From assembly GCA_021324685.1 (NCBI GenBank), contig JAJPIQ010000035.1:1-36853 (forward strand): a stretch of 36,853 nt of DNA, read 5' to 3'. Origin of the DNA: Bacteroidota bacterium (GTDB lineage: Bacteria > Bacteroidota > Ignavibacteria > Palsa-1295). Both the position numbers and the translations under genes were made by a program. This document shows, in pieces, positions 3,865-34,022 of this stretch. A model generated the notes under the pieces. That model saw only the letters and a list, made by a program, of their open reading frames with translations. It was not told the origin of the DNA and made no database searches. Numbering within the stretch: the stretch's first letter is position 1; each line of letters opens with the position of its first letter.

Positions 3865-4525
3865 GCACGAGGACGCATTCTCCTTTGACCGATTCGGGAA
3901 AGCGTTCATCCAGCCGTGTGAGTACGTCGAGAAGTGGGCCACGGACGAACTCCTCATGAAGTTTCGTAATTTCGCGGGCAAGCGAAGCTTCACGGTGCGG
4001 CCCGCAGACTCCGATCAATTCTTCGAGCAACCGTTTGATGCGGTGTGGAGATTCGTAGAGTACGACAGTACGCTCTTCGTTGGCGATCTCTGCAAGTCGA
4101 GTACGGCGGCCTTTTTTCAGCGGAAGAAATCCTTCGAAGGCAAACCGGGTGGTGTCCATACCGCTTCCGGATAGTGCGGCGATCGCGGCACAGGCTCCCG
4201 GTATTGGAACGACCTCGATATCGAGGCCAATGGCTTCTTTAACGATCGCCCACGCAGGATCTGAAATGCCAGGCGTTCCAGCGTCCGTTACGAGGGCTAC
4301 GCTGGCACCGGTGCGAAGGTCTTCGGCAAGTTCGGCTGCACGAGAGCGCTCGTTATGCGAATGATAACTGACGAGCCGGCGTGGACGAATACCATGGCGT
4401 TCGAAGAGGGTACGAGCGTGCCGCGTGTCTTCGCAAGCGATAATATCGGCTTCCTGAAGCACGCGGATTGCACGCAGAGAAATATCTTCGAGATTGCCGA
4501 TCGGAGTAGCGACGAGATATAGCAT
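3821..4525 (-). CDS. rsmI: 16S rRNA (cytidine1402-2'-O)-methyltransferase
   Basis: The protein has 234 residues from the ATG at 4525; a TTG 12 bp upstream is less likely. It 2'-O-methylates C1402 of 16S rRNA in the decoding centre, using S-adenosylmethionine. Family motifs are clear: LYLVATPIGNLEDISLRA at the N-terminus, EDTRHARTLFERHGI, VALVTDAGTPGISDPAW, the VPIPGACAAIAALSGSG block, FEGFLPLKKGRR and ESPHRIKRLLEEL. The length is a little short of the roughly 280 residues in many species because the C-terminal tail is reduced. It overlaps the convergent flavoprotein gene. Confidence 0.96.
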   Translation of the reverse strand: MLYLVATPIGNLEDISLRAIRVLQEADIIACEDTRHARTLFERHGIRPRRLVSYHSHNERSRAAELAEDLRTGASVALVTDAGTPGISDPAWAIVKEAIGLDIEVVPIPGACAAIAALSGSGMDTTRFAFEGFLPLKKGRRTRLAEIANEERTVVLYESPHRIKRLLEELIGVCGPHREASLAREITKLHEEFVRGPLLDVLTRLDERFPESVKGECVLVLSGRRDRDVADENE

Positions 4526-4640
4526 GAATAGGATCAAAACGAATAAAACGCGGACTGATTCATTCCAGGTTTTACCCGGGGTGGCATACTTCTTTCAAGC
4601 TGAACAATAACACATCCGTTTTGCTTTAAAACCCGAATAG

Positions 4641-5843
4641 TTGGCTTTTAATATTCGCGTCACCGGTCCGGAATTCGTTTCCGAAGAGAATGCTCGCGCT
4701 TTCGTTCGGGTCGAAGAAGCCGTTCGCCAATACGCGGCACATGCCCGAGAAACGGTTCTTTTGGTGCGTCGACCTTTAAGAGCGGTTTCCGAAGATCATT
4801 TCGTGCTCCTCTGGTCTCATGGTTCTGCTCTTGTAGGAATGTATCCATTGGACGGAAAGGTCCATGCTCGTTCGGTCGGACCGTGGCTTGTCGAACGAGG
4901 GGAGGCCGGAAATCGAGAAGATGCCTACCAGCGGCTTCAAAATCCTCGCATCACGTTGGAACGCGGGCGGCGCGAACTTGCAGCCATACTCGAAAGAAGT
5001 GTTTCTGTGCGCGAACCGGCGGTTGCAGGCGGCGCCGAAAGGGTGAATATTTCGGATGTTCGAACCAGCGAGATACAAAACTCGCCAACCATCGATCGTG
5101 CACCTGCGGTCGCGCTGATTGCGCTGTTCGTTGGCCCGAAGAGCGAGGTCCGATTCGATGAAACGGCGGAACAAGATCGTTCCCATAGCGCCGAGTCCGA
5201 ATTTTCTGCCATGACGCTGGAATATGCCGTTTCTCGAACGATCGTTCATATTCCTTACTTGCTTCGAGTGGCCGATCGTGGCCGGGCCGTGTATTCTGCC
5301 TCCGAATTGGAGTTGGCTGGCAAGGAGCTTGAAAGGTCAGCAGAACTTCGCGAAATAACTCAAACGAGAAACGGGGTTCCCGCTCCCTTCGAGACGGACG
5401 AATTGGAGGGCCGATCAAGATCGCTTGTTCGAAGTTGGTGGTTCGTCCCTGTGGTTTTGGCGATTGCAGTGGTCGGGTTTTACGCGCTTCGCTCGATCCT
5501 TGCGCCAAATGTGGTGTCGACGAAGATCAGTTCGCCCCCGCCAGCGGCGATCGGGCATTCGCCGAGTGAGATCGTTCTCGAGCTTCCGCAGGAAGTGCAG
5601 CTTTTTGTTTCGGCCAATCAATATAAAACGCGGCTCGATCTCGACCACGCGCTGTCGCGTGGCGAAGGGCAATGGTATCTGCCCGCGACCGAGCAAATTA
5701 TCGTCATGGACAGTGTCCGGCTGGCCAAAGGAGTCTACGGATATTTTAAGGTCGACAATGCATGGCGCAAGGGCAAATTACTCGAGACGTTGGAGCCCGT
5801 AGATACCATCACCATTGTGAAATTTTTAGATCCATTGCCGTAA
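4641..5843 (+). CDS. Membrane-anchored protein of unknown function (NERD-like N-terminus?)
   Basis: The protein has 400 residues. The frame opens at a TTG directly after an in-frame TAG, so TTG at 4641 is the likely start; no ATG lies nearby. I do not recognise a family with certainty. Residues about 45-125 (FVLLWSHGSALVGMYPLDGK ... QNPRITLERGRRELAAIL) have the strand/NP/helix order of NERD domains, but the nuclease E-x-K is not there. Residues about 266-287 are a single TM segment (WWFVPVVLAIAVVGFYALRS). About 110 mostly beta-type residues follow, presumably outside. Fifteen bases separate it from a lipoprotein gene, which suggests a three-gene operon ending at 7124. Confidence 0.7.
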   Translation: MAFNIRVTGPEFVSEENARAFVRVEEAVRQYAAHARETVLLVRRPLRAVSEDHFVLLWSHGSALVGMYPLDGKVHARSVGPWLVERGEAGNREDAYQRLQNPRITLERGRRELAAILERSVSVREPAVAGGAERVNISDVRTSEIQNSPTIDRAPAVALIALFVGPKSEVRFDETAEQDRSHSAESEFSAMTLEYAVSRTIVHIPYLLRVADRGRAVYSASELELAGKELERSAELREITQTRNGVPAPFETDELEGRSRSLVRSWWFVPVVLAIAVVGFYALRSILAPNVVSTKISSPPPAAIGHSPSEIVLELPQEVQLFVSANQYKTRLDLDHALSRGEGQWYLPATEQIIVMDSVRLAKGVYGYFKVDNAWRKGKLLETLEPVDTITIVKFLDPLP

Positions 5844-9465: not shown

Positions 9466-9531
9466 TGAAGCCTTTGTTTTGAATGTCACTATTTTTAAGC
9501 AAAAAATTGTTCTTGTTAACGGTCTTTCCAG

Positions 9532-9539
9532 CAAATATA
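9532..9539 (-). promoter_or_regulatory. Possible -7 box for the esterase gene
   Basis: TATATTTG on the minus strand lies about 70 bp before the ATG at 9465, in the divergent spacer. No TTG is found at the expected distance, so support is weak. Confidence 0.25.
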
Positions 9540-9623
9540 TCCTCTGGACGCATTTTTGCATATTGGGAAAATTCATTCGTTATTTTTTCCAAAAACTTTT
9601 CGTTCGGTTCAGTCACCTATCTA

Positions 9624-10202
9624 ATGAAGGCTAAAAGGTTAAGCGTGGGGGCGGAAAAGGGCCAATTCTGGGAGCTCGTCGATCGGGAGCGCCACTATAC
9701 GTGGCGCTTATGCCGCGCGCTTACGAGGTCGTATGACGACGCCGCCGATCTTTTGAGCGATACCGTCCTTGCCGCCTACCAAAGCTTTCCCGCGCTGCGG
9801 GACGAGCAAGCTTTCCGCAAGTTTTTGAGCACGATCGCCGTGCGAATAGAACGCCGGAAACGATGGAGAAATCGGATTTTCACTCCGTTGGCAGAAGCCG
9901 AAGAATGCTTCTACGAGCCGGTTGGTGAGTCGTCGCACGATCTGAATACGCTTCTTTTAGCCTTGGACCGCTTGCCGATTCGCGAACGTGAGGCGATTGT
10001 GCTTTTCGAGATCACGGGACTCTCGATCAAAGAGATTCAGGAAATACAGGGAGGAACGCTTTCCGGGGTGAAATCTCGCATGGCACGAGCGCGAAATCGG
10101 CTAAAAGGGATGCTGGTCGAGAGCGAACTTGCCGTTTTTCAATCGTCGAATGCCGGCAAGGCGGCTTCGTCCGCCCTCGTTCCTGCGGGCGCCTTACAAT
10201 GA
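9624..10202 (+). CDS. ECF-type RNA polymerase sigma factor
   Basis: The protein has 192 residues from the ATG at 9624; a longer frame extends upstream through AT-rich DNA that does not look coding. Region 2 is at about 15-75 (YTWRLCRALTRSYDDAADLLSDTVLAAY, then FRKFLSTIAVRIERRKRW). Region 4 is at about 115-165 (LDRLPIREREAIVLFEITGL, then SIKEIQEIQGGTLSGVKSRMARARNRL). The D-A-D-L-L-S-D-T-V core is a variant of the usual DAEDLLQETF. It lies 4 bp before a one-TM protein that looks like its anti-sigma partner, so the pair probably forms an envelope-responsive switch. Confidence 0.9.
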   Translation: MKAKRLSVGAEKGQFWELVDRERHYTWRLCRALTRSYDDAADLLSDTVLAAYQSFPALRDEQAFRKFLSTIAVRIERRKRWRNRIFTPLAEAEECFYEPVGESSHDLNTLLLALDRLPIREREAIVLFEITGLSIKEIQEIQGGTLSGVKSRMARARNRLKGMLVESELAVFQSSNAGKAASSALVPAGALQ

Positions 10203-11199: not shown

Positions 11200-12555
11200 A
11201 TGTTAAACAAAGGACTTTCCCAAATTGGGCTTCGCCTGCTCGACCGAGCGACCGATGCCTTTCCGGCCAGTGTGCCGAAGTTTTTCAATCGCGCATTTAT
11301 TGGGCTCTTAGGAAGCCGACCGATCGCCCAGATGACCCTGAAGAAGTATCGAAAACGTTGGGACCGAATCGCGGAAGGCCTCAGCCCTCATTCCAAAATA
11401 CTGCTCATCGTTGATGTATGCATCGGAGATACGGTGCTCGCGTCCGAATGCTTGCCGGTATTGCAGGAAGCGTTCCCGAATTCCGAAGTCCACTTCGTTT
11501 GCAATCGAACGGGCGGCGAATTGATCGACGGAATGCTTGGTATACACGTCCATAATATTTTCGAGGGCGCGCGCGGTTTTCCAACGAACGGCGATCTGGT
11601 GAGGCTCCGAAGCTTGCTTACGAACGAGCGATTTGACGCAATGTTCAATCTCGGCCCCTTCCTCGACCCGAAAGCATTGCCGGACGGATCTCCTCTGATT
11701 CAACTTTTCGTTCCATTTGCCGCCCACATGCTCATTCGATGGAAGTCGGACGAGCACCGGCATATTTCCTATTGTGCTCGAACGTTCCTGCGGGAATTTT
11801 TAGGAGTAGATGCGGGACCTTCTCATAATGTTACTCTTAATACGAATACCGTGTATCTCTCCCGCGAATCGCTCGAACTTGCACACGCATTTTTAGATGC
11901 GCAGGGACTGCTCGATGCGAAAGGCCTTGTTCTTTTCAATGCAGATGCTACGAGCGCCTACGGCCAAATGCCGTTCGATGTGCAGCTTAGCGTGCTCCGG
12001 CATCTGTGTGCGATGCGCGAAATTTCGAATGTGCTCATCGGCAAAGCATATACCGCAAAGGGGATCGAACAGAAGCTGCTTGCAGAACTGCCCGAGGAAT
12101 TTCATGCCAAGATTGTCATTGTGCCTCACGTACCGATCGAAGTGTATACCGCACTTATCGATGCCTCGGATATGTTTATATCGGGCGATACCGGTCCGCT
12201 CCATATTGCAGCTTGCCGAAAGCAAGGACCGAAAGAACTTCCCTCGATGAGGAACCGCACAGCGGTCCTTGCGATCTATGGTGCGACGGACTCCAAAATG
12301 TATGGCTACGATTCGGAACAAGCCTACCACGTTCCCGCCAATCAGGATGCGCCATCGCGTTCGTTTTCGGCTCCGGCTCCGTGCCGGAACATCTCTTGCA
12401 TTAATAAATTTGGAAAATCCTGCCACGAAGTCCGATGTTTTCACGAATTACCGCTGGATGGTATCTTCGCTCATATCGATAGTTTTTTTCAAGGTCGTGC
12501 TGAGCCGCCTCCCGTAACGATCGCACTAACGGCCAAACGTGAGTACGCTATTTAA
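11200..12555 (+). CDS. Glycosyltransferase family 9 (heptosyltransferase-like)
   Basis: The protein has 451 residues. GT-B enzymes of family GT9 add heptose or related sugars to lipopolysaccharide core or other glycans. The N-terminal domain begins at KILLIVDVCIGDTVLASECL, the place of the usual GD-x-x-x-x-x-P loop. The donor-binding signature is ISGDTGPLHIAA near residues 326-337. A C-terminal cysteine cluster (APCRNISCINKF, KSCHEVRCF) resembles that of other GT9 members. An N-terminal extension of about 65 residues is longer than in WaaF or WaaC. The acceptor is unknown. Its end overlaps the LysE-type gene, so the two are probably co-translated. Confidence 0.85.
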   Translation: MLNKGLSQIGLRLLDRATDAFPASVPKFFNRAFIGLLGSRPIAQMTLKKYRKRWDRIAEGLSPHSKILLIVDVCIGDTVLASECLPVLQEAFPNSEVHFVCNRTGGELIDGMLGIHVHNIFEGARGFPTNGDLVRLRSLLTNERFDAMFNLGPFLDPKALPDGSPLIQLFVPFAAHMLIRWKSDEHRHISYCARTFLREFLGVDAGPSHNVTLNTNTVYLSRESLELAHAFLDAQGLLDAKGLVLFNADATSAYGQMPFDVQLSVLRHLCAMREISNVLIGKAYTAKGIEQKLLAELPEEFHAKIVIVPHVPIEVYTALIDASDMFISGDTGPLHIAACRKQGPKELPSMRNRTAVLAIYGATDSKMYGYDSEQAYHVPANQDAPSRSFSAPAPCRNISCINKFGKSCHEVRCFHELPLDGIFAHIDSFFQGRAEPPPVTIALTAKREYAI

Positions 12556-13324
12556 CACCGTTCTTTTTCTCGTATGCGTTTATATTATGGGCTTCTTGGC
12601 GGCGATCCCGATCGGGGCATCGCAGTTCGAGGTCGCGCGCCGCTCGCTCAACGGCTTTCTTGCTACGGCGATAATCGTAGTAGCCGGTTCCGTTTCGTCG
12701 GATTTCGTGTATGGCGCTATTGCGCTCTATGGTCTCGCTCCTTTTTTACAGAAGCCGGAGGTGGAGGCGATCTTCTGGCTGGTGAACGCGGCGCTCATCC
12801 TCGTCTTCGCTATTGGAACACTTCGCGAAAGCACACACACGGGCAAGCTTACCGTAAAGAAAAATCTTCAACCGGCGGAAGGATCCTTGGAACCATCTTC
12901 TCTTTCGGAACAAGAATCTGCACTTGGGCGAAAACTTTCGAATCGGCGCCTGGCCTATATCACAGGATTCTCTCTCGCGTTCACGAACCCGATGATGATC
13001 GCCTGGTGGCTTCTTGCCGCGCGATTTTTACGAGACCTCGGCGTTATCAATACACTTTCGAACGCGACTCGGGTCGTTTTTCTTATCGCGGGATGCCTTG
13101 GAATAGGATCTTATCTTACGCTCTTTGCGGTGGTGATCTACCGCCGGCACAAATCATTCTCGCAAAAAAATGCGAGCCGAGTGACGCGAGGCTTTGGGAT
13201 CGCAATGATTTTTTTTGCTATCTACTTCGTGATCCGCTCGATCATTATGCTTAAGTCACCCAATTCTTCCACGATGCCGATCGGGACCATTTTTCTCCAC
13301 TACGCACCGATGTGTTTGCACTGA
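12539..13324 (+). CDS. LysE/RhtB-family exporter
   Basis: The protein has 261 residues and a GTG start inside the end of the glycosyltransferase gene (17-bp overlap). About six hydrophobic segments are visible. The N-terminal family pattern is there: GFLAAIPIGASQFEVARRSL, then GFLATAIIVVAGSVSSDFVY. The central signature ITGFSLAFTNPMMIAWW also fits. Members export amino acids or related small molecules through the inner membrane. A loop at about 100-140 is longer and more charged than usual. The pairing with a GT9 gene does not tell the substrate. The final 20 residues are poorly conserved in character. Confidence 0.85.
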   Translation: MSTLFNTVLFLVCVYIMGFLAAIPIGASQFEVARRSLNGFLATAIIVVAGSVSSDFVYGAIALYGLAPFLQKPEVEAIFWLVNAALILVFAIGTLRESTHTGKLTVKKNLQPAEGSLEPSSLSEQESALGRKLSNRRLAYITGFSLAFTNPMMIAWWLLAARFLRDLGVINTLSNATRVVFLIAGCLGIGSYLTLFAVVIYRRHKSFSQKNASRVTRGFGIAMIFFAIYFVIRSIIMLKSPNSSTMPIGTIFLHYAPMCLH

Positions 13325-13364
13325 TCTTGCATATCGCAGGCGGCAATTCGGTGTCTTGTTAACC

Positions 13365-13844
13365 ATGAGCCATACACGTAGAGAATTTTTAGCCGGGCTG
13401 ACGAAGATCGCCAGCGGCACCGCGCTTGGATATGCCGCGCTGCCTATACTCGAAGCATGCACGCCAACTTCTGTACCGATGCTGCCGGAACAAACGACGA
13501 GTCCGATCGGTCCGGATGGGAGCGTTTCCGTGAATGTTTCGGCCTTAACACACGCTGATCCTGGATTTCAGGTACCGAATGTGCTGGGCGCTGATGGCTT
13601 CGGCGTGATGGTCACGCTCACGGCCGATGGGAACGTCCATGCGTTTTCGATGAAGTGTACGCATCAGAGTTGTTCTGTCGATAGTCAGCTTACACACGCC
13701 GAGATCCACTGCAGTTGCCACGGTTCGCTCTTCCGGCTGGATGGCACCGTCGATCAGGGACCGGCCAGCGCGCCGCTCGGGTCGTATCCCGTCTCCTATG
13801 ATCCCTCCACGAAAACGGCAAAAATTCAGGTTATTCCCAAATGA
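13365..13844 (+). CDS. Rieske [2Fe-2S] protein, Tat-type lipoprotein
   Basis: The protein has 159 residues from the ATG at 13365. The N-terminus carries a twin-arginine signal (TRREFLAGL) and a lipobox-like LEAC with C32, so a folded Fe-S protein would be exported and lipid-anchored. Rieske box 1 is CTHQSC (C98, H100, C103) and box 2 is CSCHGS (C116, C118, H119). By family knowledge C98, H100, C116 and H119 bind the cluster and C103-C118 form a disulfide. It carries single electrons at high potential. No cytochrome b gene is near, so it is unlikely to be a normal bc complex subunit. Its stop overlaps the next start by 4 bp, which ties it to the cytochrome-porin. Confidence 0.92.
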   Translation: MSHTRREFLAGLTKIASGTALGYAALPILEACTPTSVPMLPEQTTSPIGPDGSVSVNVSALTHADPGFQVPNVLGADGFGVMVTLTADGNVHAFSMKCTHQSCSVDSQLTHAEIHCSCHGSLFRLDGTVDQGPASAPLGSYPVSYDPSTKTAKIQVIPK

Positions 13845-15085
13845 ATTGCAACTTCCGCATGCGCGACAAATCGAGTGGCAACCGCTATGTAACTCGCATC
13901 ATTTGTCAGCTATCATTTTTAGTCGTGGTACTGGCTGCCGTGGAAGCGAAAGCAATTCCACGATTTTCACTTCTTACCGGAACACGCTGCTCCGCCTGCC
14001 ATTTCGATCCGCAGGGGAGCGGCCTGCGTACGGAACTCGGCTGGGAGATGATGAACCAGACCGGACTCTTTCAATGGCATGGCGAGGACACATCGATTTC
14101 CAACGAAACCTGGATGAATGGGAAGCTCTTTCCTGGCGGCGATGCACGCTTTCAGCTGGTACGCGTCTCGCATACGAACCAGGAACTCGTTATTCCGATG
14201 CAACTGACGGCGTCGCTTGGATATATGCCTTCACCCGAATTGAGTGCATACACCAACATCAATCTTGCCAGTCTCTACGTCCGCAGCGTCACCAGCCCGA
14301 CGGACCTGTTCGGCACGACGAGCGGGCTTTATCCCGGAGAGACCGATTACGATGCGACGATCGATTATCATCCAAGCGTGACGCTTCCTTCGATTCGTAT
14401 AGGGATGATCGAGCCGAGCATCAGTATTCGGCAGGACGACCATACCCTGTTTACGCATCAGGAAGCCGCGATTCAACAACTTGCGCTCATCCCGCCCTAT
14501 TATAACGAGGTCGGTGCCGAGCTAACCTATGAAGGGATTCGCTGGCTCACCGTCAATGCCGGGATCTTCAATGCGAAGAACCTTTCGCAAATCGATCCGA
14601 CGATCGGATCGGTGAGTTCGAGTTTCGATTTCAGCCATCCGAGCCTTTCGGGCCGAGTCGTACTCTGGCCGCAATCGCTCGAGCAAGGCCTGAACGGGGA
14701 ACTCGGTGGTTCGGTGTTGATCAATGGTTCCTTTCGAATCCTGAACGCGTTTACGGGTATCGGCCTGGCAGACAAAGCGACCTTCTTTTTGGAAGGAATG
14801 TATTCGAAAGATGCCGCACAACGCATTGTGCGAAATTTCAGCATCATTGGCAGTTACGAACTCACGGCGTGGCTGGCGCTCGAATGGAGGTACGACTGGG
14901 GGATGACGGAACTGTATCCGGGGCAGGCGCTTGCGTATGCCACGGCCTTTTTAGCGGGATTCGAATTCTTCCCGTTGCCTTACATCGAAATCCGCCCCGA
15001 ATATCGCGTAACCGATACCAATCCATTTTTTGGCACGGGAACGCACGTGGGCCAGTGGACCGCGCAATTGCATCTCTTTTATTGA
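13841..15085 (+). CDS. Monoheme cytochrome c fused to an outer-membrane porin-like barrel
   Basis: The protein has 414 residues. After a signal peptide (FLVVVLAAVEAKA) the mature N-terminus has one heme c motif, CSACH at 50-54, in the block TGTRCSACHFDPQGSG. The remaining 340 residues alternate in amphipathic strands with Gly/Tyr/Trp-rich turns and end in LHLFY, as in outer-membrane barrels. The layout recalls the cytochrome-porin Cyc2 of iron oxidisers and porins with an N-terminal CxxCH, but I cannot claim Cyc2 orthology. The start overlaps the Rieske stop (ATGA) and a CX4CH lipoprotein follows 3 bp later. Inferred role: a redox-linked pore in the outer membrane. An N-terminal start further in is possible. 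Confidence 0.8.
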   Translation: MNCNFRMRDKSSGNRYVTRIICQLSFLVVVLAAVEAKAIPRFSLLTGTRCSACHFDPQGSGLRTELGWEMMNQTGLFQWHGEDTSISNETWMNGKLFPGGDARFQLVRVSHTNQELVIPMQLTASLGYMPSPELSAYTNINLASLYVRSVTSPTDLFGTTSGLYPGETDYDATIDYHPSVTLPSIRIGMIEPSISIRQDDHTLFTHQEAAIQQLALIPPYYNEVGAELTYEGIRWLTVNAGIFNAKNLSQIDPTIGSVSSSFDFSHPSLSGRVVLWPQSLEQGLNGELGGSVLINGSFRILNAFTGIGLADKATFFLEGMYSKDAAQRIVRNFSIIGSYELTAWLALEWRYDWGMTELYPGQALAYATAFLAGFEFFPLPYIEIRPEYRVTDTNPFFGTGTHVGQWTAQLHLFY

Positions 15086-15088
15086 ACG

Positions 15089-16114
15089 ATGACAAAACGT
15101 ATTGATACTGTCGTCGCGCGGGAACCGCGCAGGACTACGTGGAAGCGAACCGTGCGGTCATTCCGCGGGAAGCGGACCGTTCTTCTGCTTTCTCTTCTTT
15201 TTTTTATCGTACAAACATCGTACGTTCTTAGCGGTTGCCAATACACGATCAATGGGAACCCGGACGTCGAACTCGTGGAGGTGCATGTCTCACCGGTTTC
15301 GGCCGTCGTTCCGCAACGCGGCTCCCTCGTGCTTTCCGCAACGGTACTCGGGTTTTCGAACACGGGGACGGTGACCTGGTCCATCGAAGGTGCGAACGAT
15401 GGAACGATTGTTCCGAACGGACTTACGGCGGTCTATACCGCTTCCGTGGGCCTTCCAACGACCGTCAATATTCGTATTACCTCCGATGAAGATGCGAACC
15501 GCTACGTTGTCTGTCCGGTCACGATCGTTATCCCGACGGATACGGCGTTTGCTCTTAGTCCCGATAGCGTGACGTTACTTACCAGTAATTCGATCTCAAA
15601 TAATGCACAGCAATTTACGCTCGACACACTGACGGACCAAAGTCCGATTCCTGCTATTCGCTGGGAAGTGGCAAGCGGACCCGGCACCATAGATCCAAAC
15701 GGACTTTATACCCCTCCTGCAAGTATCGACTCCGATGGAGTTTCTGCAACGGTCCGAGCGGTTTCGACCCTTGACAATACCGTGTTTTCACAAGCTACCG
15801 TCATTCTCCGTAATGCGAGCGACTCGATTCGCTGTTTCACGCGCGACATCCTTCCCTTGCTTTCGGGCAGCTGCGGAGCGAGCGGGTGTCATGATGCGGG
15901 TGGCCGCGGAGGATTTACGGCACTTACGTACACTGGAACGGTCAATGGCCGCAATGTTCTTGCTGGCGACGCGCGCGGAAGTCGTCTCTTTCAGGCGATC
16001 ATCGACTTCAATGCGAATACCCGAATGCCACCGCCTCCGCAGCCGATGTTACCTCCGAATCAGGTTCTTACGATCGGCCAATGGATTAACGAAGGAGCTA
16101 TTGATTGCCAGTAA
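15089..16114 (+). CDS. Lipoprotein with Ig-like repeats and CX4CH cytochrome-like domain
   Basis: The protein has 341 residues. About 30 polar residues precede the hydrophobic signal, so a GTG at 15152 may be the true start. The lipobox is LSGC (C50). Two Ig-like segments follow (about 63-150 and 153-242) with WSIEG and WEVASGPG-type strands. The C-terminal domain of 95 residues holds C262-GASG-C267-H268 and then RMPPPPQPM, which offers M313 or M320 as axial ligand, and QWINEGAIDC. This is the pattern of short cytochrome domains often described with planctomycete-type cytochromes. C249 and C340 may form a disulfide. It follows the cytochrome-porin by 3 bp and is probably its partner. Confidence 0.75.
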   Translation: MTKRIDTVVAREPRRTTWKRTVRSFRGKRTVLLLSLLFFIVQTSYVLSGCQYTINGNPDVELVEVHVSPVSAVVPQRGSLVLSATVLGFSNTGTVTWSIEGANDGTIVPNGLTAVYTASVGLPTTVNIRITSDEDANRYVVCPVTIVIPTDTAFALSPDSVTLLTSNSISNNAQQFTLDTLTDQSPIPAIRWEVASGPGTIDPNGLYTPPASIDSDGVSATVRAVSTLDNTVFSQATVILRNASDSIRCFTRDILPLLSGSCGASGCHDAGGRGGFTALTYTGTVNGRNVLAGDARGSRLFQAIIDFNANTRMPPPPQPMLPPNQVLTIGQWINEGAIDCQ

Positions 16115-16618: not shown

Positions 16619-19600
16619 ATGAGACGTGTTTACTACGTGTCGTTAGTCGTGTGTTTCGTGCTCGTAGCAACAGCTTCCATGATGCTGGTGCGTACGGCCG
16701 GGGCACAGTCACGCCGCGGCGAGCCAAATGCCTTATCGAGCGGCTATTATGTCGTCGATTCGGACGATAATGCTCCGACTCCGTGGCGGCCTCAATACTT
16801 CTTCATGGACACCACGTACAACCGCACGGAATGGGTTCAGATCTGGACCGGTCCGCGACAGTTCGGAGCTCCGGGGCAGTACTTTTTCGACCCGACGCAT
16901 CTCGGTTCGCCGTCCTCAATGGATACGGTGAACGATTGTATGGCTGGGCCGATCTACATGCGCCTGGGACACCAGTGGAACTTCTACGGCGGAAATTATG
17001 ACAGCGTCTATATTTCCTCGAACGGGTTTATTGGCTTCCGCCCCTATGCCGAAGCGGTGGCTGGGACCCCACCCGCTTATTGCCGTGGCAATAACGCGGA
17101 CTTAAAGAACAGCCCGAGTTCCGCTCCGCACGCTATTGTTGCCGCTCTCTGGGCGGACCTCGATATGCGCCATGGCGGTCCTCACGACACGTCGATCGTC
17201 TATTTCCGGACTTCGACCTCGCTCGACACGTTCTTTGTAAACTACTACAATTTCCGGTTACGACCGGGTGGCTATAACAGTGCTGCTCCGCCTTCTGGAT
17301 GGACATCGCCGGGTGCCGATAAGATCTTCTGCAAGAAGTTCCAAATCGTGCTCGCGAATACAGATTCCAGCATCCAGGTCAATTATGGCGGCTTCACCGG
17401 ATCGGTCAACGGATTCCCGCCGACTCTGTCCTATGCGCTCTTCGAAGGTAACTCTTCGATTGGCCTTGTGAACGAAGATGGCACCCAGGCGACCTCGGTC
17501 CTCTACGGCAAACGCGGTCCTGGCCGTTGGGATGCAATTAACCCGACGTGCCGCACCTGTAACAAGGAATGGAGCCAGACGAAGCAGTGGGCCATCAAGT
17601 TCAAGCGCTGGCACAACATCGTTCGTGCCGTGCAGGTGGACTATCCGCCCAGAAACTATGAAATTTGTCTTGGGACCTCGGTAACTCCGAAAGCCCAGTT
17701 CAAGAACGTAGATGTGGCGACGCAGACGTTTAAGGTCCGCTTTGCGATCCGCAATGTCGTGACGGGGATTGCCGTCTACAGCCGTGTCGTTTCCTTGGTC
17801 GGCATGCTGCCTGGCTCCTCGAAAGATACTTCGTTCTCGCCGTATGCAACGAACCCGAACATTCTGAGCCAGCTCGGAACGTTCAATGCTTGCGCGATTG
17901 CGACAACCTACGATACTGCCGATAAGAACATCGGTGACCGCTGGCCGTTCGACGATACGGTCTGCACAACGGTCTTTGGTGTACGCCGTACATCGACGCC
18001 GTTCCGCGATCCCTCTAACAATTATAGCAAGACGGTTTCCGCCGATATTCCGGACCAAACCCTCTGGATTTCGATCGGTGCTCAGGTCGTCGATGGCGAA
18101 AGCAATACCTGGGATCCGCCGCCGCCGAGAGATCAGGCCGGATACGGACCCGACGGTTTTGTTTCGCCGGTTATTCTTATGGACCGAGCAGATATCAACG
18201 GAAATACCTATAGCGGTTCATACGTTGGAGATACCCTCGTCAGCTTCCCGATCAACTTACAGGGAAAGACGAAAGCGAATTTAAGCTTCGACTTCCAGCG
18301 CGCAGGCCAATTCTCGGGCTATTATAAATGGCTCTGGGATGAGGACCTAATGTACGGACCGGAGCATACCGTGCTTAATTCGAATACATTAGCCGTGATG
18401 CGGCCGGGTGACTCCTTACTCCTCGAATTCAAGGATCCGGCGCAACCAGGTTGCAACCCTTCTCCGGGCGCATGGAACCGTGTTATCGCTATCGATGGCG
18501 GTCATGACTTCGAATTCAAGAAGTTCTTCATGACGCTCAATGGCGGAAAAGTCAATATCGACGGTATTGCGCCAACGACAGTTGCGCTCAAGAATTACTT
18601 CACCGCCGATTTCCGCTTCCGTCTGCGCCTCAAGGCTAAGTACGATGCGGCATTCATTCCGCCACCGAACGACGACCTCGATCCGTGGTATGTTGACAAT
18701 CCGACGGTCATCGTGCCGTTGAAGCCTGAAATCGAAGTTATGTGGGTCCGTGTGGTCAATCCATACACGAAGATCCCCGCTTCGCAGGCCGTTTCGCTCC
18801 CGGTCTATGTGAAGGTTGCGAACATGTCGACCGACGTTCAGATCGCGTTCCCGATTCGCGTTCAAATCGTCGATCCGAATGGCAATACGATCTATTGGCA
18901 GTCGATAACCGTCAATTCACTGGCCGGTGGTACCGATTCCATCATCCAGATGCCGAACTGGAACGCGCAGGATGCTACACAGGGTGGTTATGCGCAGTAT
19001 CAGGTGAATGCATGGCTCGACCAGCCGGGATATGATTCCTATGGCACGGACAACGGTACCTATACAATGTTCTTCTTGGGCGTTGAAACGGGTCCTTCCG
19101 CTGTGCAGGAATTCGCGTATGACGATGCAGGTCTGACTCCGGGACCAAACTCCGGAAACGACTGGCCATCCATTACGCAGCTATCCGGTCAGGGTGTTGG
19201 ATTTAACCAGAATAACGGTAGCTTCGCGATGAAGTTTAAACTCGCCACAAAGGATACGCTCTATGGTGTGCGCGTTTACTTTGCGAACGCCAACCAGTCG
19301 GCGGACGATATTCGTCTTTCGATTCTCGAGGGTGATCCGAGCACTTGTACGCCTGGCGACACGCTCCTGCAGGAGAATGTGCAAGCGACAATGACGGCTC
19401 AGCGCGGTGGCGGATACTTCAATCAGTTCTGGCCATATTATTTCCCGAAACCGATCGTACTGCCCGGCGGCGCCGATGGCGGTGCATCGAAAGGAATCTA
19501 TTGGCTCAGCGTCAGCCAGTTGGGTATCGTTAACATGATGATGGGTGCCAACGTATCGCGTGGCGGTGCTCTCATTCGTGAGTGGGATCCCTATATGATC

Positions 19601-20479
19601 TCGCCGCACCTCGAGCCAGCTTATGATGATATCTACGGTACGCAGTTCAGCAACTCGTCGAACGACGGCGATGTAAGCTGCGTGTGGGCTATCGAAGCCA
19701 CGGCCGGAAGCGGTGCATGGGCAGCGTGGACACCGAGCGTAGGCTGGTGGCCGACCAACGGACCTTCGGGAATTCCGTATAGCGAAATTCTTTCCTGGAC
19801 AACGGTAGGCGGAAGCCCGTCTTACATGTTCCTCGCGGGAAGCTATACCCCGATGATCCGCCCGATGGTAAGCCAGAGCGTCCTTCTGCCGGTTGAACTC
19901 GTCTATCTCAAAGGCGAACAGCAGAATGGCTCAGCGGTCCTTACGTGGGCAACGGCCAACGAGCGCGATAACAACGGCTTTGTTGTTCAGCGCAAGCTGG
20001 CGAATTCCGACGAGATGTATGGCCCGATCGGCTTTGTGGGAGCGGCGGAGAAGAACTCCTCCAGCGAACAAGGCTACGGCTATGTCGATCGTAACGTAAC
20101 GCCGGGAACCTATGACTATCGTCTTGTACAGCAGGATGTCAATGGGGCTCAGCACGTCTCGAACGAGATCCAGCTCACGATCGATGCGCCGAAGGACTTC
20201 TCCCTCGCGCAGAACTATCCGAACCCGTTCACTCCGGTGACGAGCTCGACCGATCTTACCTTTACGGTTCCTGCGTCGGCTCCGGCCACGCTGGTGATCT
20301 ATAACGAGCTCGGCGATGTCGTTCGGACGTTGTTCAATGGAACGGCAGATGCCGGTATTCATACCGTTCGTTGGGATGGTAAGGATGCCACCGGCCAGTC
20401 GGTGACTTCAGGTTCTTACCTCTGCAAACTCGTCTCCGGCGAAAACGCCGCGACGATCAAGATGACGGTGACTCGCTAA
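16619..20479 (+). CDS. Large T9SS-exported surface protein
   Basis: The protein has 1286 residues. It has a Sec signal (LVVCFVLVATASMMLVRTAGA, cut before QSRRG). Residues about 115-250 (YDSVYISSNGFIGF ... AALWADLDMRHGG ... FQIVLANTDSSIQVNYGG) resemble nidogen-like extracellular modules. A CARDB-like stretch occurs near 700-810. The end carries the usual LLPVELVYLKGEQQNGSAVL block and a T9SS sorting domain (FSLAQNYPNPFTP, then SGSYLCKLVSGENAATIKM). No catalytic motif is seen, so a structural or adhesive role is possible. The coding sequence is notably rich in C-ending codons and it has its own promoter and terminator, which would suit high expression. Function unknown. Confidence 0.88.
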   Translation: MRRVYYVSLVVCFVLVATASMMLVRTAGAQSRRGEPNALSSGYYVVDSDDNAPTPWRPQYFFMDTTYNRTEWVQIWTGPRQFGAPGQYFFDPTHLGSPSSMDTVNDCMAGPIYMRLGHQWNFYGGNYDSVYISSNGFIGFRPYAEAVAGTPPAYCRGNNADLKNSPSSAPHAIVAALWADLDMRHGGPHDTSIVYFRTSTSLDTFFVNYYNFRLRPGGYNSAAPPSGWTSPGADKIFCKKFQIVLANTDSSIQVNYGGFTGSVNGFPPTLSYALFEGNSSIGLVNEDGTQATSVLYGKRGPGRWDAINPTCRTCNKEWSQTKQWAIKFKRWHNIVRAVQVDYPPRNYEICLGTSVTPKAQFKNVDVATQTFKVRFAIRNVVTGIAVYSRVVSLVGMLPGSSKDTSFSPYATNPNILSQLGTFNACAIATTYDTADKNIGDRWPFDDTVCTTVFGVRRTSTPFRDPSNNYSKTVSADIPDQTLWISIGAQVVDGESNTWDPPPPRDQAGYGPDGFVSPVILMDRADINGNTYSGSYVGDTLVSFPINLQGKTKANLSFDFQRAGQFSGYYKWLWDEDLMYGPEHTVLNSNTLAVMRPGDSLLLEFKDPAQPGCNPSPGAWNRVIAIDGGHDFEFKKFFMTLNGGKVNIDGIAPTTVALKNYFTADFRFRLRLKAKYDAAFIPPPNDDLDPWYVDNPTVIVPLKPEIEVMWVRVVNPYTKIPASQAVSLPVYVKVANMSTDVQIAFPIRVQIVDPNGNTIYWQSITVNSLAGGTDSIIQMPNWNAQDATQGGYAQYQVNAWLDQPGYDSYGTDNGTYTMFFLGVETGPSAVQEFAYDDAGLTPGPNSGNDWPSITQLSGQGVGFNQNNGSFAMKFKLATKDTLYGVRVYFANANQSADDIRLSILEGDPSTCTPGDTLLQENVQATMTAQRGGGYFNQFWPYYFPKPIVLPGGADGGASKGIYWLSVSQLGIVNMMMGANVSRGGALIREWDPYMISPHLEPAYDDIYGTQFSNSSNDGDVSCVWAIEATAGSGAWAAWTPSVGWWPTNGPSGIPYSEILSWTTVGGSPSYMFLAGSYTPMIRPMVSQSVLLPVELVYLKGEQQNGSAVLTWATANERDNNGFVVQRKLANSDEMYGPIGFVGAAEKNSSSEQGYGYVDRNVTPGTYDYRLVQQDVNGAQHVSNEIQLTIDAPKDFSLAQNYPNPFTPVTSSTDLTFTVPASAPATLVIYNELGDVVRTLFNGTADAGIHTVRWDGKDATGQSVTSGSYLCKLVSGENAATIKMTVTR

Positions 20480-29159: not shown

Positions 29160-31841
29160 TTAATACAAGTTTATTTTTTTCGTGATCATCACAGTGCCGC
29201 TCTTCGCCCTTACAATATACGTTCCCCTGGGAAGCGCGCTCGTATTCCACTCGTAACTTCCTTCGATCATGAAGTGCTGAACCTCACGACTAAGCATATC
29301 GAAGATCTCAACGTTGGCAGATGGCGCTCCCTGAAGCGAAATCGTCCAGAGGCCATCGACATTAGAAATAATATTTAGTGAGAGCGTTGAAGTGGGCTCG
29401 TCGTGGACACCGGCTTCGACTCCCTTACCCGTAAGCAATGAAGTGTCTTTGGCTTGATGGATGAAGGCGGACGGTAGATTGGTCCCCCAGTCTAATCCCG
29501 ATTGGACCGGCCCAGCCTTTTCAGGGTGAAAACAAATTTCAAATGATACGGTCCGGCCAGGCGCAATTGTATCGGGAAAGAGCGCCTTGTCGAGGAACGA
29601 AAAATTGATTGAGTCTCGAAGCAACAAATCGGGTGAAAGCACAAGCGTGGCACTTCCTGCATTTTGAATTGTCACCATCTTACAAATCGTATCGCCAACC
29701 GATATATTGCCGAAGTCGAGATCGCCGGCAATGATAATTGGCGTGACGCCAATCGCCTGGAGCGGAACCCGGAATGTAGCACACTCGGTCGCGACAGACA
29801 ATGTGTCAGTTGAGAGCAAGGTGTCGGAAGGAGTATAGCACACATCGAGGTCGAGTGTATCTCCGGAATGAAGAACTTTATTGAGAATGGCTGGCGAGAA
29901 ACTAAATCGGCCGGCTGTATCGCCGCCTTCCAAGGCCGCGTTCGTGATCGTGATACTACCTGATGACTGTCCATTCCGGAGCACGATTTGTTTGCAGGAA
30001 TCGAAAGCGACAGGAACAGCACCGAACGAGATAAGGGATGGAGGAATGACGGTAAGCAACGGCGGCGAATAGGAATATTGATAGACTGTATCGTTTCCAG
30101 CCAGGTCTGTGATAAAGATTGCAGCGTAAGCAGCCTTTGTGGGATCGTTTACGGTGAGGGTCGCTGTGACCACGCTGTCCGCCACAGCGAAATTTGAATC
30201 CTGTGTAAAGCTGTAATTATAGGATGGCGTTGCCCAGCGCGGATCTCGGGAATCCGTGATCACCGAAAGATAGGCAATGCGAGTATCGTTCGAGCGAGGT
30301 TCGGAAAATCGTATATGAAAATTGCCGCAAGAGCTGTCGAGTGTTTGCGCGAGCGGTGGCAACGTGTCGGTTGAATTGGTGGCGAGACCCAAGCTTGCGG
30401 GATGGCCGTAACTTTCATAACTGGACCATCCATAAAGATAGCACCCGAATGGTTCGGGGCACGTGGCGAGATAGGCGGTTGCATCGCCAGGAAACTGAAC
30501 TCTGTATGCTCCCATTAGTGGCGTCGTACCCTGGAAAGTAAGGTGCCCGGCGGGGGTATAAGCGCCGATCGGTTTTCCATTAATCATTATTTTGAGAATG
30601 GAATCTTCTCGACAAATAAAGGTCCCATAGTGATAAAAGGCAGCCACGCCCGCCCGAATCGGTGTCGAAAAAATCAACTTCTTTTGAAACTGCTGGTGCG
30701 GGGTAAGAACAGTGGAGAACGGGTCCGATATGCCTGGATCGCCCAGGTAATTCTGACTGTATGCCATCTGGACTGCGAGGAATTTTTTCCCGCCTTGTGA
30801 AGAAAAGACCGTGGGATCGGTGATCTGGTCGAAGTCATAAAAATCTCCCGCTTTAGAAAGCTGTGCCACCACTGACCGATTCGAGCTGGTTGCGGTAACG
30901 GTAACACTGTCTTGACCCGCGATAACGCGGACTAAATCTCCGCAAACTGTTCTTGTTGCTGTCGGCATGTCATAATACTCCGAGCCCCATTTGTCGAGCG
31001 ATGGGACCATCTCCATTATTTCGTCCTTGGAGCCATCTTGATCTGCGAGTTCGCCAATGGGAATAGAACAGAGTTGATGCCCGGAGATCAATGCGATGGG
31101 TTTTGTGCTTACGATATGAGTGCCGGTGAGATCACCATCGCCATAATTCAGCCCGGTGGACTGAACGAGATAGGTCTGGCCTTTCATCAATTTTACGTTC
31201 CAGGTATCGCCGCGCTGGTGTAAAATAGTATCGGCATTCGGATCGCTTCGAGTCGGGGTTTTTAGCGGCCCAATCGTAACGACGTTATTGTCGTAGGGAG
31301 AAATAATGAGGAATTGTCCCGCTAAGGGATTCGACGGACCGAGGGAATAATGATCGTCATAATAGCACGAAGGATAATACTCGGTTCCTAATGCGGGTGT
31401 AGGCAGGGCAAGATAGCTATCTGTCGAAGAAGTATTAACTCCGGTATATTGGTATCCATAGACTGCGATCGGGCTCCTGGCATAGACGTGGATTGCTCGG
31501 TAAGCAACACGTTCGGTGACATCTGTCTCCCAATTCGCCTCAGAGGGTGCGGTAACCGTCCAGACCGAATTCGCTGTCATCTGTTGATCATGAGTCTCAT
31601 TTGGGATTTGCGACCCACCATACACATCAACGTGAACGTCATTATCGGTAGCGGAAGCGATAAATAGCATTACACCCTGCGGCGGACAACAATTGAGAGA
31701 GAGCGAATTCGGCATAAAGCCGAGCCAATAATCGGTCCCCATCGATGTTAGGCCGTTCTGCGAAAATACTAACGGCGGAAATAAGAGGACACTCGCCGCA
31801 AAAAGGGCGAACAGCATTCCATAAGTCAGCAATTTTTTCAT
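29160..31841 (-). CDS. T9SS cargo with IgGFc-binding-like and HYDIN-like domains
   Basis: The protein has 893 residues. It has a Sec signal (YGMLFALFAASVLLFPPLVFS, cut before QNG). Residues about 33-440 resemble the IgGFc-binding N-terminal domain (MGTDYWLGFMPNSLSL, VYGYQYTGVN, ALPTPALGTEYY). Residues about 590-810 hold two choice-of-anchor-D/HYDIN-like segments (LISFGAVPVAFDSCKQIVLR and LDFGNISVGDTICKMVTIQN). A T9SS sorting domain closes it (VEIFDMLSREVQHFMIEGSY, then EWNTSALPRGTYIVRAKSG). Such proteins are surface displayed; adhesion is plausible but not shown. It begins 3 bp after its upstream neighbour. Confidence 0.85.
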   Translation of the reverse strand: MKKLLTYGMLFALFAASVLLFPPLVFSQNGLTSMGTDYWLGFMPNSLSLNCCPPQGVMLFIASATDNDVHVDVYGGSQIPNETHDQQMTANSVWTVTAPSEANWETDVTERVAYRAIHVYARSPIAVYGYQYTGVNTSSTDSYLALPTPALGTEYYPSCYYDDHYSLGPSNPLAGQFLIISPYDNNVVTIGPLKTPTRSDPNADTILHQRGDTWNVKLMKGQTYLVQSTGLNYGDGDLTGTHIVSTKPIALISGHQLCSIPIGELADQDGSKDEIMEMVPSLDKWGSEYYDMPTATRTVCGDLVRVIAGQDSVTVTATSSNRSVVAQLSKAGDFYDFDQITDPTVFSSQGGKKFLAVQMAYSQNYLGDPGISDPFSTVLTPHQQFQKKLIFSTPIRAGVAAFYHYGTFICREDSILKIMINGKPIGAYTPAGHLTFQGTTPLMGAYRVQFPGDATAYLATCPEPFGCYLYGWSSYESYGHPASLGLATNSTDTLPPLAQTLDSSCGNFHIRFSEPRSNDTRIAYLSVITDSRDPRWATPSYNYSFTQDSNFAVADSVVTATLTVNDPTKAAYAAIFITDLAGNDTVYQYSYSPPLLTVIPPSLISFGAVPVAFDSCKQIVLRNGQSSGSITITNAALEGGDTAGRFSFSPAILNKVLHSGDTLDLDVCYTPSDTLLSTDTLSVATECATFRVPLQAIGVTPIIIAGDLDFGNISVGDTICKMVTIQNAGSATLVLSPDLLLRDSINFSFLDKALFPDTIAPGRTVSFEICFHPEKAGPVQSGLDWGTNLPSAFIHQAKDTSLLTGKGVEAGVHDEPTSTLSLNIISNVDGLWTISLQGAPSANVEIFDMLSREVQHFMIEGSYEWNTSALPRGTYIVRAKSGTVMITKKINLY

Positions 31842-31844
31842 GGT

Positions 31845-34022
31845 TCAGTTCTTCAGAACACGCTTGCTCAGCACTACGCCGCCCATATTTACACGGACAA
31901 TGTACGCTCCGGCCGGCAGCATACTCGTGTTCCACTCGTAACTACCTTCGACATGAAATTTTGTTACTTCCCGTCCGAGGATATCGAAGATTTCGATTTC
32001 GGCGGAGGGCGAACCGAACAGACGGAACACGGCGATCTCCGAAGATGGGTCGAAGGACAACGAGAAGTTGGCGGGGGATTCCGTTACAAGGACCGACGCC
32101 GTAGCAAGGCTACTAAAGCATGTATCGAAACGGTTCCCAGCCAGGTCGATCGCCGTCACGCAAAAACTTGATTCCTGAGACGGATTGATTATTTGACCCT
32201 CGAAACTCGTAACGCGTTCATTTTTAATCGAAGAGCTGCCTCCGAGAGACATGTTTGTAACGTTGGAAAAATAAAGCGTGTCGAGCCCTCGATCCCATGC
32301 CTGTGAATCAGTGACCGTATAAAAGCAAGGACCGTTTACCGTATCGATGCAAACGATACGTGCGAGTCGAGGCGGATTTTTATCTGCGATCGTGCAATAG
32401 GTAAATTGCGTAGTATCGGAATGCCCCAGGGAATCCACAATCATGATCGTTGCCGAGCCATTAAGCATCGAGTCGATAACGCAGACCGAATAAAACATCG
32501 AATCCTGATGCGTCTTAACGAGCGAAAGCACCATATTCTGAATCGCCGAAGCCGTTACGGATTTCACCGGCACCGTCGTTACACCAGTATCGTACGCGAC
32601 GGCGTTGTAGCACCGGGCATTACACGGGTTATCGCCGAAGCTGCCGATGCTCGAAAGGACGTTGGAGACGGGTGAACTATTGTAAGCGATGTATGGCGAT
32701 TGGCAATCGACGGCAATCGGAGTCGCACAGGGCGACGTAATAAGGATCGGTGCCGGGATACCCGTAGCAGCGAGCGAAACGGAAATATTGAATGTCGAGT
32801 CGCCCGAGCAATTAATCAGTGAACCCATTACCGTATCTTTCCACGTAACCGCGGATGCTCCGTAGGCAGGAACGATTGCGCGTGAAAAATTCTGTTGCTG
32901 CTGATATCCGTTCGTCGAGACCGGTTCCGGACTGACGATCTGTATCGGGCCCGCTTGAACACCCGCCGCGTTTGTCACGGTCTGCGTGGCCGAAGCGTCC
33001 ACCGCGGAACTGTAATGCGGGTTCCAGACTACGGCATCGACCGGAAAGCTGGAAGGAATATACACGCTGTCCTTTGCGTCCCATGTTATATGGTCCGGAT
33101 GGACGGTTATCGCATCGAGGTTCCCATAACAGAACGAATTCGAATAGGCTGCCGTACCGTAGCTTCCACGACCGAGCTCTTGCGTTGAGTTCGGACCAAT
33201 AGCCGTATCCGGCCATTGAATAAGTAAAGCTGCATCTGTCGAGTGGTTAAAGAATGTACTGGGCAAGCCCCATGTATAACCGGTCACGATCGTCGGCCAA
33301 TCGACATACGCAACGCGGCTTGGCTGCATAAGTCCCATCGGTCCCGGAGCGAGGCTGTCGTTATTGAAGCCGATGGCAAGGTTGCCGGGAAAAGTTATCG
33401 AAGAGATCGGCCGCTCTGTCGCAATGAAGTACGGAGGGATAGGCGAAAAGTCTTGCCAATCGTAGGTGTAACCAAAGCGCGTGGTGATGGGATTATCATC
33501 GTTCGATGTGTCGACCGAGGAAAGAAATCCGTCAAGAAGGAGTTGCGCTTGAACGTTTACCGTGGAATCTTCATGATTGACAGCGCTGAACTTATAAACG
33601 ATTTGACCGGAGTTCGAGAACGAGAAAAAAACCGGGTAAACGTCCTGAACGATGTCAATGGCATTCGGTCCCATCGGTTGCCAGACCGTTCGAACGGTGT
33701 CCTGAATCTTCATCGTCTTACCATTCTGAAGGTAGCCAGTCGGATTGGAGGGAACAGCACCGGTAACCGGTGCAAGCGCGATATACATGTTGTTCGTATA
33801 AAACTTCCCATTGATGGCGACCGTAAGATAGGAATGTTCTTCATACGAAAGCCAATTTTTTGGCGTTGAGGGCCCGGCGAGATAGATGCCTATAAGCCCT
33901 GCACCGTCCCTCGAAACGTCCACTTTTACGGCCGCATTGCCCGTCGTAAGAAATTGTGCGTGAGCGGCTGTTGAAATTGCAAGGAGAAGGCCTGGGACCG
34001 TGAAGAGATATGACCGAGACAT
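31845..34022 (-). CDS. T9SS-exported protein of unknown function
   Basis: The protein has 725 residues. The signal peptide is LFTVPGLLLAISTAAHA, cut before QFLTT. No enzyme domain is recognised. Residues 20-290 are beta-rich and describe a repeated exposed module; later parts have Ig-like strand patterns (CVTAIDLAGNRFDTC, FTYCTIADKNPPRL) with paired cysteines. The sorting domain (IEIFDILGREVTKFHVEGSY, EWNTSMLPAGAYIVRVNMGG) is nearly the same as in the downstream protein. The gap to that gene is 3 bp, so both are probably transcribed together from the spacer at 34023-34124, which has a palindrome. Confidence 0.8.
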   Translation of the reverse strand: MSRSYLFTVPGLLLAISTAAHAQFLTTGNAAVKVDVSRDGAGLIGIYLAGPSTPKNWLSYEEHSYLTVAINGKFYTNNMYIALAPVTGAVPSNPTGYLQNGKTMKIQDTVRTVWQPMGPNAIDIVQDVYPVFFSFSNSGQIVYKFSAVNHEDSTVNVQAQLLLDGFLSSVDTSNDDNPITTRFGYTYDWQDFSPIPPYFIATERPISSITFPGNLAIGFNNDSLAPGPMGLMQPSRVAYVDWPTIVTGYTWGLPSTFFNHSTDAALLIQWPDTAIGPNSTQELGRGSYGTAAYSNSFCYGNLDAITVHPDHITWDAKDSVYIPSSFPVDAVVWNPHYSSAVDASATQTVTNAAGVQAGPIQIVSPEPVSTNGYQQQQNFSRAIVPAYGASAVTWKDTVMGSLINCSGDSTFNISVSLAATGIPAPILITSPCATPIAVDCQSPYIAYNSSPVSNVLSSIGSFGDNPCNARCYNAVAYDTGVTTVPVKSVTASAIQNMVLSLVKTHQDSMFYSVCVIDSMLNGSATIMIVDSLGHSDTTQFTYCTIADKNPPRLARIVCIDTVNGPCFYTVTDSQAWDRGLDTLYFSNVTNMSLGGSSSIKNERVTSFEGQIINPSQESSFCVTAIDLAGNRFDTCFSSLATASVLVTESPANFSLSFDPSSEIAVFRLFGSPSAEIEIFDILGREVTKFHVEGSYEWNTSMLPAGAYIVRVNMGGVVLSKRVLKN

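Follow-up and report, generated by a model that had tools for sequence, protein, structure and literature searches.

The window, meaning the whole stretch of DNA analysed here, spans 36,853 nucleotides (positions 1–36,853, forward strand, of contig JAJPIQ010000035.1 in the Bacteroidota bacterium assembly GCA_021324685.1) and contains three closely packed genes that encode a Rieske lipoprotein, a putative monoheme cytochrome-porin and a lipoprotein with a CX4CH heme site. The genes and the features within them are as follows.

12539–13324, + strand: LysE-type transporter gene, directly upstream of the trio (PF01810, E = 1.3e-17)
13365–13844, + strand: Rieske [2Fe-2S] lipoprotein gene, 159 aa (PF00355, NCBIfam and homologue alignment)
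13458–13460, + strand: lipobox Cys32 codon of the Rieske protein (invariant in 24 homologues)
13656–13673, + strand: first Rieske cluster loop, CTHQSC (from the sequence; C98 and H100 invariant)
13710–13727, + strand: second Rieske cluster loop, CSCHGS (from the sequence; C116 and H119 invariant)
13841–15085, + strand: monoheme cytochrome-porin gene, 414 aa (AlphaFold2 model, OprP/OprO structure matches and family alignment)
13988–14002, + strand: heme c site CSACH (from the sequence; C50, C53 and H54 invariant in 37 homologues)
14435–14446, + strand: DDHT motif in the connection between strands 5 and 6 (conservation; DSSP strand order on the model)
15089–16114, + strand: CX4CH lipoprotein gene, 341 aa (PSCyt1 in homologues; structure model)
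15872–15892, + strand: CX4CH heme site CGASGCH (C262, C267 and H268 invariant in 13 of 13 homologues)
16025–16027, + strand: codon of Met313 within RMPPP, a candidate axial ligand of the heme (no variation among 13 homologues)

The porin reading frame overlaps the Rieske stop by 4 bp (ATGA), and a gap of 3 bp separates it from the third reading frame. The Rieske frame starts at position 13365 (ATG); a TTG in the same frame at 13356 is a possible alternative start. Outside the trio, the non-overlapping reading frames of the window contain no other CxxCH, CX3CH or CX4CH motif, and no cytochrome b match was found among the window proteins scanned. A sequence-only reading made before this analysis had described a tight three-gene unit with no cytochrome b or multiheme genes nearby; the coordinates, overlap and gap that it gave were all confirmed, and the motif and protein scans agree with it. 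Promoter and terminator scans of the window gave results at chance level. The LysE gene accompanies the trio in five loci of the genus, the window included, as detected by neighbour clustering, and is probably a neighbour rather than a functional part of the trio. Farther upstream lies an ECF-type sigma factor gene (9483–10202), followed by genes for a 349-aa protein without a Pfam match, a GT9 protein and LysE; several members of the genus likewise have the sigma factor, GT9 and LysE genes ahead of the trio. Elsewhere in the window, 16619–20479, 29160–31841 and 31845–34022 encode large proteins whose C-terminal sorting domains resemble those of type IX secretion, scoring below the Pfam cut-off in the latter two; the 29160–31841 protein additionally bears an IgGFc_binding domain.

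The first protein of the trio matches PF00355 (E = 1.2e-12), and its best NCBIfam match is b6f PetC (6e-10, under the cut-off of that family). It carries a Tat motif (TRREFL), a lipobox ending in ILEAC and a GPA proline loop, and its C-x-H and C-x-x-H cluster loops fall within the PF00355 domain. An alignment of 24 homologues shows no variation at Cys32, C98, H100, C116 or H119. These features bear out the proposal of a Tat-exported Rieske lipoprotein. The cluster loops and the proline loop are shared with bc1/b6f-type Rieske proteins, and the nearest solved structures are b6f-type, the closest being 5cxm, a cytochrome b6/f iron-sulfur subunit entry (hmmsearch E = 1e-18). Unlike the bc1/b6f subunits, which have an N-terminal membrane anchor helix, the window protein has a lipobox, and no cytochrome b gene adjoins it among the window proteins scanned; assignment as a subunit of a bc1/b6f complex was ruled out on these two grounds. 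Residues known to tune the potential vary in the clade described below (CHGS in the window protein, CHRA in some members of family f14), and the disulfide cysteines are missing in some members of f7 and f19. A single fixed potential range is therefore unlikely.

The second protein matches no Pfam or NCBIfam family. It is laid out as a signal peptide, assigned by eye, an N-terminal heme segment (AIPRFSLLTGTRCSACHFDPQGSG) and a predicted 16-stranded barrel. Its only CxxCH motif, C50-x-x-C53-H54, lies about 12 residues past the likely cleavage site, and the mature protein is expected to start just ahead of the heme segment AIPRFSLLTGTRCSACH. An AlphaFold2 model computed from an alignment of 37 relatives (mean pLDDT 82, pTM 0.80) places the 16 strands between residues 96 and 413; within the N-terminal heme segment of this heme-free model, confidence falls below 50 at residues 28–40 and 86–88. 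Structure comparison returned OprP as the best match (Z 24.9, r.m.s.d. 2.9, 287 residues aligned), together with OprO (Z 24.7, r.m.s.d. 3.7, 290 residues aligned), and a sequence search of the PDB with the barrel profile gave no significant match. The barrel-like part that had been suspected after CSACH is thus a predicted 16-stranded barrel, and the fold prediction for 13841–15085, chosen beforehand as the result on which that suspicion could fall, came out as a barrel.

The DDHT motif falls within the long stretch that joins strand 5 to strand 6, where porins have their constriction loop, L3. Within the motif, D200 and H201 are invariant, and D199 and T202 are at least 90% conserved; besides the heme site and this pair, M120 and H411 are also invariant in the family. 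Conservation makes DDHT a candidate heme ligand or metal site, and one of M120, D200, H201 and H411 may serve as the second heme ligand or as a metal site. The highly conserved polar residues of the barrel family comprise D101, R103, R197, D200, H201, E227, E383, R389 and H411.

The third protein combines a lipobox (VLSGC), two Ig-like domains and a helical C-terminal CX4CH cytochrome domain, and its lipobox cysteine, C50, is invariant in 13 of 13 homologues. Both Ig_3 and PSCyt1 score under their cut-offs on the window protein (17.8 bits for PSCyt1, cut-off 22). Among the homologues, 10 of 13 match PSCyt1 (PF07635) at E ≤ 0.01, the best at 4e-9; unlike in PSCyt1 domains, the CX4CH site of the third protein lies downstream of two Ig-like domains and on a lipoprotein. 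The full-length model reached a pTM of 0.38, with a helical C-terminus, and its structural matches cover the Ig-like part only (residues 59–245), so that the assignment of a cytochrome fold to the C-terminus rests on the motif and on PSCyt1. A weak match to FoxE was also recorded (E = 0.0035). The proposed lipoprotein with Ig-like parts and a cytochrome-like C-terminus is in keeping with the Ig-like model matches, the invariant CX4CH site and the PSCyt1 matches of the homologues.

Neighbourhoods in other genomes were gathered using the barrel as the query, so that the presence of a Rieske gene near a barrel was not selected for. A maximum-likelihood tree was built from 63 barrels of 62 loci and rooted at the midpoint, and a Rieske lipoprotein gene was counted if it shared the strand of the barrel gene and lay no more than 4 kb away. 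Such a gene is present near 37 of the 39 barrels of a clade with 100/100 support, which comprises nine families (f1, f2, f4, f7, f14, f15, f19, f23 and f24), whereas an adjacent Rieske gene occurs at none of the 24 barrels of the sister clade (Fisher p = 2e-15, calculated on related, non-independent rows). By our own estimate, with 7 Rieske domains in 3.47 Mb, a same-strand Rieske neighbour this close to a given gene would arise by chance in about 1 case in 100. A gene for a CX4CH/PSCyt1-type lipoprotein lies near 23 of the 39 Rieske-clade barrels. The families display several gene orders: (i) Rieske–barrel–lipoprotein, (ii) Rieske–lipoprotein–barrel, (iii) lipoprotein–X–barrel–small TM–Rieske and (iv) barrel–small TM–YceI–Rieske. 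As the orders differ, the link appears to be maintained by more than the inheritance of a single operon. The association at the heart of the proposed three-gene set is therefore kept (37 of 39), although its order is not fixed between families.

Within an evenly drawn sample of 296 genomes from the phylum, full-length members of the porin family were found in the source class only, and the matches outside this class were nearly all short and located at the heme segment. A pattern scan of the genome contigs returned two close loci and no more. The Rieske-free sister clade holds a related porin with other partners; one of its members is a paralogue of the window porin in the source genome (contig 10, 8271–9605), with a biotinyl-domain-like gene directly downstream. 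Genome G099 carries a tandem duplicate unit (locus L054, 5368–12058) that encodes a 5–6-heme lipoprotein cytochrome, a heme-porin and a Rieske-like lipoprotein from which the disulfide cysteines have been lost. In G099, the 5–6-heme cytochrome takes the place of the CX4CH lipoprotein, and a third partner of this kind in one family favours electron transfer.

Neighbour clustering showed that a YceI lipocalin accompanies the trio, as does a small protein with two hydrophobic segments, which brings the set to at least five members. Profile searches located YceI near 14 loci and the small two-helix protein near 20 loci of the Rieske clade, and neither near any locus of the sister clade. Both genes follow the trio in one genome of the genus (G001) and in one of the same family (G009), and YceI follows it in another genus member (G002). 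The YceI/small TM pair occupies a separate place in the source genome (contig 74) and in G004, G005 and G006. A YceI orthologue was detected in 7 of the 7 genus members searched.

In genomes, single-heme cytochrome-porins are used as markers of iron oxidation. The definition of Cyc2 comprises AXPXFAR[Q/K][T/Y] five residues before CXXCH, PXL four residues after it and a 16-stranded, OprO/OprP-like porin barrel (PMC8406198). The window porin shares with Cyc2 of Mariprofundus and Acidithiobacillus (PMC8406198) a signal peptide and a single N-terminal CxxCH heme, as well as the 16 strands, OprO/OprP as nearest folds and AxPxF ahead of the heme. It differs in that (i) FAR[QK][TY] is missing from the whole family, the window protein having AIPRFSLLTGTRC and FAR being absent from all rows of the 37-row alignment, (ii) the PxL after the heme is replaced by CHFDPQGSGLR in the window protein and CHxxPxGGxxR in the family, (iii) the family has the invariant D-H pair within DDHT and (iv) a Rieske lipoprotein and a CX4CH lipoprotein serve as its partners. 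When the family profile was compared with a Cyc2-like profile built from 28 proteins found in the source class, the majority of which carry the complete motif, 344 columns aligned (probability 99.1, E = 1.6e-18), although part of this match may come from the common porin fold. BLASTP between the window barrel and a Cyc2-motif protein of its own genome matched around the heme site only (E = 0.005), and the relation to Cyc2 rests on the profile comparison. With matching profiles and parts of the signature missing, the window porin is related to Cyc2 and is not Cyc2 by the published definition. Of the Cyc2-type comparison drawn in the sequence-only reading, a distant kinship thus survives, but it is to a distinct family without the Cyc2 signature. 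MtrAB, MtoAB and PioAB likewise pair a barrel with heme at the outer membrane, but with a 26-stranded barrel and a separate decaheme protein (PMC8406198).

Another comparable set occurs in Bacteroidia, where DUF5777 (PF19089) barrels (loci L169–L198) are found with cytochrome c lipoproteins and YceI, and with a Rieske gene at 3 of 30 loci; one of these loci, L178, encodes a plastocyanin-type copper protein. The two sets resemble each other in having an outer-membrane barrel, a cytochrome c lipoprotein, YceI and sometimes a Rieske protein, whereas the DUF5777 barrel, unlike the window porin, has no heme motif. DUF5777 was rejected as a homologue of the window barrel (hhalign probability 4.3), and the source genome contains no PF19089 match. 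The likeness is one of gene content. In the literature searched, which consisted of main texts outside subscription journals, DUF5777 was not found by name; nor was any account found of Rieske proteins together with YceI, DUF5777 or extracellular electron transfer, or of Kapabacteria with Rieske proteins. The three-gene set, with the route that it would form, was not found described there.

Other electron-transfer genes are scattered over the source genome. On contig 36 (locus L086, 11500–31400), the gene of a Cyc2-motif protein (AMPNFARKY...CGSCH...PKL; 4023–5360 of the locus) adjoins genes for a bc-type Rieske protein and cytochrome b, and that of another such protein with the altered motif FAHKY (12584–13816) adjoins genes for a diheme cytochrome and oxidase-type genes; haem-copper oxidase genes also lie near these Cyc2-motif proteins. 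Contig 35 holds a second Rieske/cytochrome b pair, the cytochrome b of both contigs having been spotted by eye, and on contig 15 an NrfD-type gene adjoins a haem-copper oxidase. The names bc1, cbb3 and alternative complex III for these complexes would be an interpretation based on Pfam matches and the arrangement of the genes. On contig 87 (locus L085, 5821–6288), another Rieske lipoprotein gene has no adjacent porin or cytochrome. Since bc, Cyc2-motif, oxidase and NrfD genes are located elsewhere, the trio would be an additional electron-transfer system of the cell.

On balance, we lean towards the view that the trio is an uncharacterised envelope electron-transfer module ending in the heme-porin, a view founded on sequence and modelling to which we give slightly more credence than doubt. 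The pairing of a heme-porin with an iron-sulfur carrier and a heme lipoprotein, and the multiheme replacement in one family, make electron transfer the best reading, and the cofactor residues are invariant in the porin, Rieske and lipoprotein alignments. The computed results are the gene association, the motifs, the predicted barrel and the distant relation to Cyc2; from sequence and predicted structure we infer that heme is loaded, where the parts lie, how they interact, which way electrons run and on what substrate, as follows. The heme-porin would reside in the outer membrane and carry its heme on the N-terminal segment, either inside the barrel or at its mouth. The lipid-anchored Rieske and CX4CH heme lipoproteins would relay electrons between the porin heme and the respiratory chain, and the YceI lipocalin and the small two-helix membrane protein would act in the same module. 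On the outer side, the partner would probably be either a dissolved metal, for instance Fe(II), or a small redox-active molecule entering the pore, in line with what has been proposed for Cyc2; export of electrons is also conceivable. The earlier suggestion of electron movement between the periplasm and the cell surface may therefore stand as the best reading, helped by the conserved association and the cofactor sites.

YceI makes a protective quinone or lipid system the main rival. By analogy with the BcnA (YceI)–cytochrome b561 system, a quinone or lipid would be held by YceI, and at the outer membrane the three proteins of the trio would regenerate it or scavenge peroxides or lipid peroxyl radicals. 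In favour of such a role, YceI lipocalins are known to bind ubiquinone-8 or isoprenoids and BcnA/LcoA to guard against lipid peroxidation (PMC9113575); the YceI genes at 14 Rieske-clade loci, the orthologues throughout the genus members searched and the analogous Bacteroidia set with its DUF5777 barrel, cytochrome c lipoprotein and occasional Rieske gene also speak for it. The presence of YceI also fits this role, and BcnA–LcoA (PMC9113575) likewise ties YceI to an envelope electron carrier, but with cytochrome b561 where the window set has Rieske, porin and cytochrome c. Beside the trio, a gene for cytochrome b561 was not noticed, many Rieske-clade loci have no YceI in their neighbourhood, and lipid repair alone hardly explains a heme-bearing porin or a 5–6-heme cytochrome; we regard protection as possible but rather unlikely.

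True Cyc2-type Fe(II) oxidation, in which the porin would be the iron oxidase and electrons would pass from the lipoprotein to the Rieske protein and on to a terminal oxidase, draws on the profile kinship, the 16 strands, the single N-terminal heme and AxPxF. We consider it unlikely, as FAR[QK][TY] and PxL are missing in the whole family and Cyc2-motif proteins are already encoded elsewhere in the source genome, next to bc- and oxidase-type genes. We give little credence to a bc-free quinol route, in which YceI would carry (mena)quinol, the outer-membrane Rieske protein would oxidise it and electrons would leave or enter via the single-heme porin. Least probable in our estimation is an uptake pore for a metal or small molecule, whose heme and Rieske partner would merely shift the redox state of the cargo during import: the highly conserved polar barrel residues and the L3-like position of DDHT agree with it, but the set has no conserved gene for a transporter or binding protein with it, LysE being limited to the genus.

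The analysis defines a five-protein set that can be expressed and assayed, and this set points to an analogous, uncharacterised one in Bacteroidia that comprises DUF5777, YceI, cytochrome c and an occasional Rieske protein. Not every heme-porin should be called Cyc2, since a related yet distinct family spans much of the class. In one large clade, this related heme-porin family has a Rieske lipoprotein as its constant partner, rather than a bc complex.
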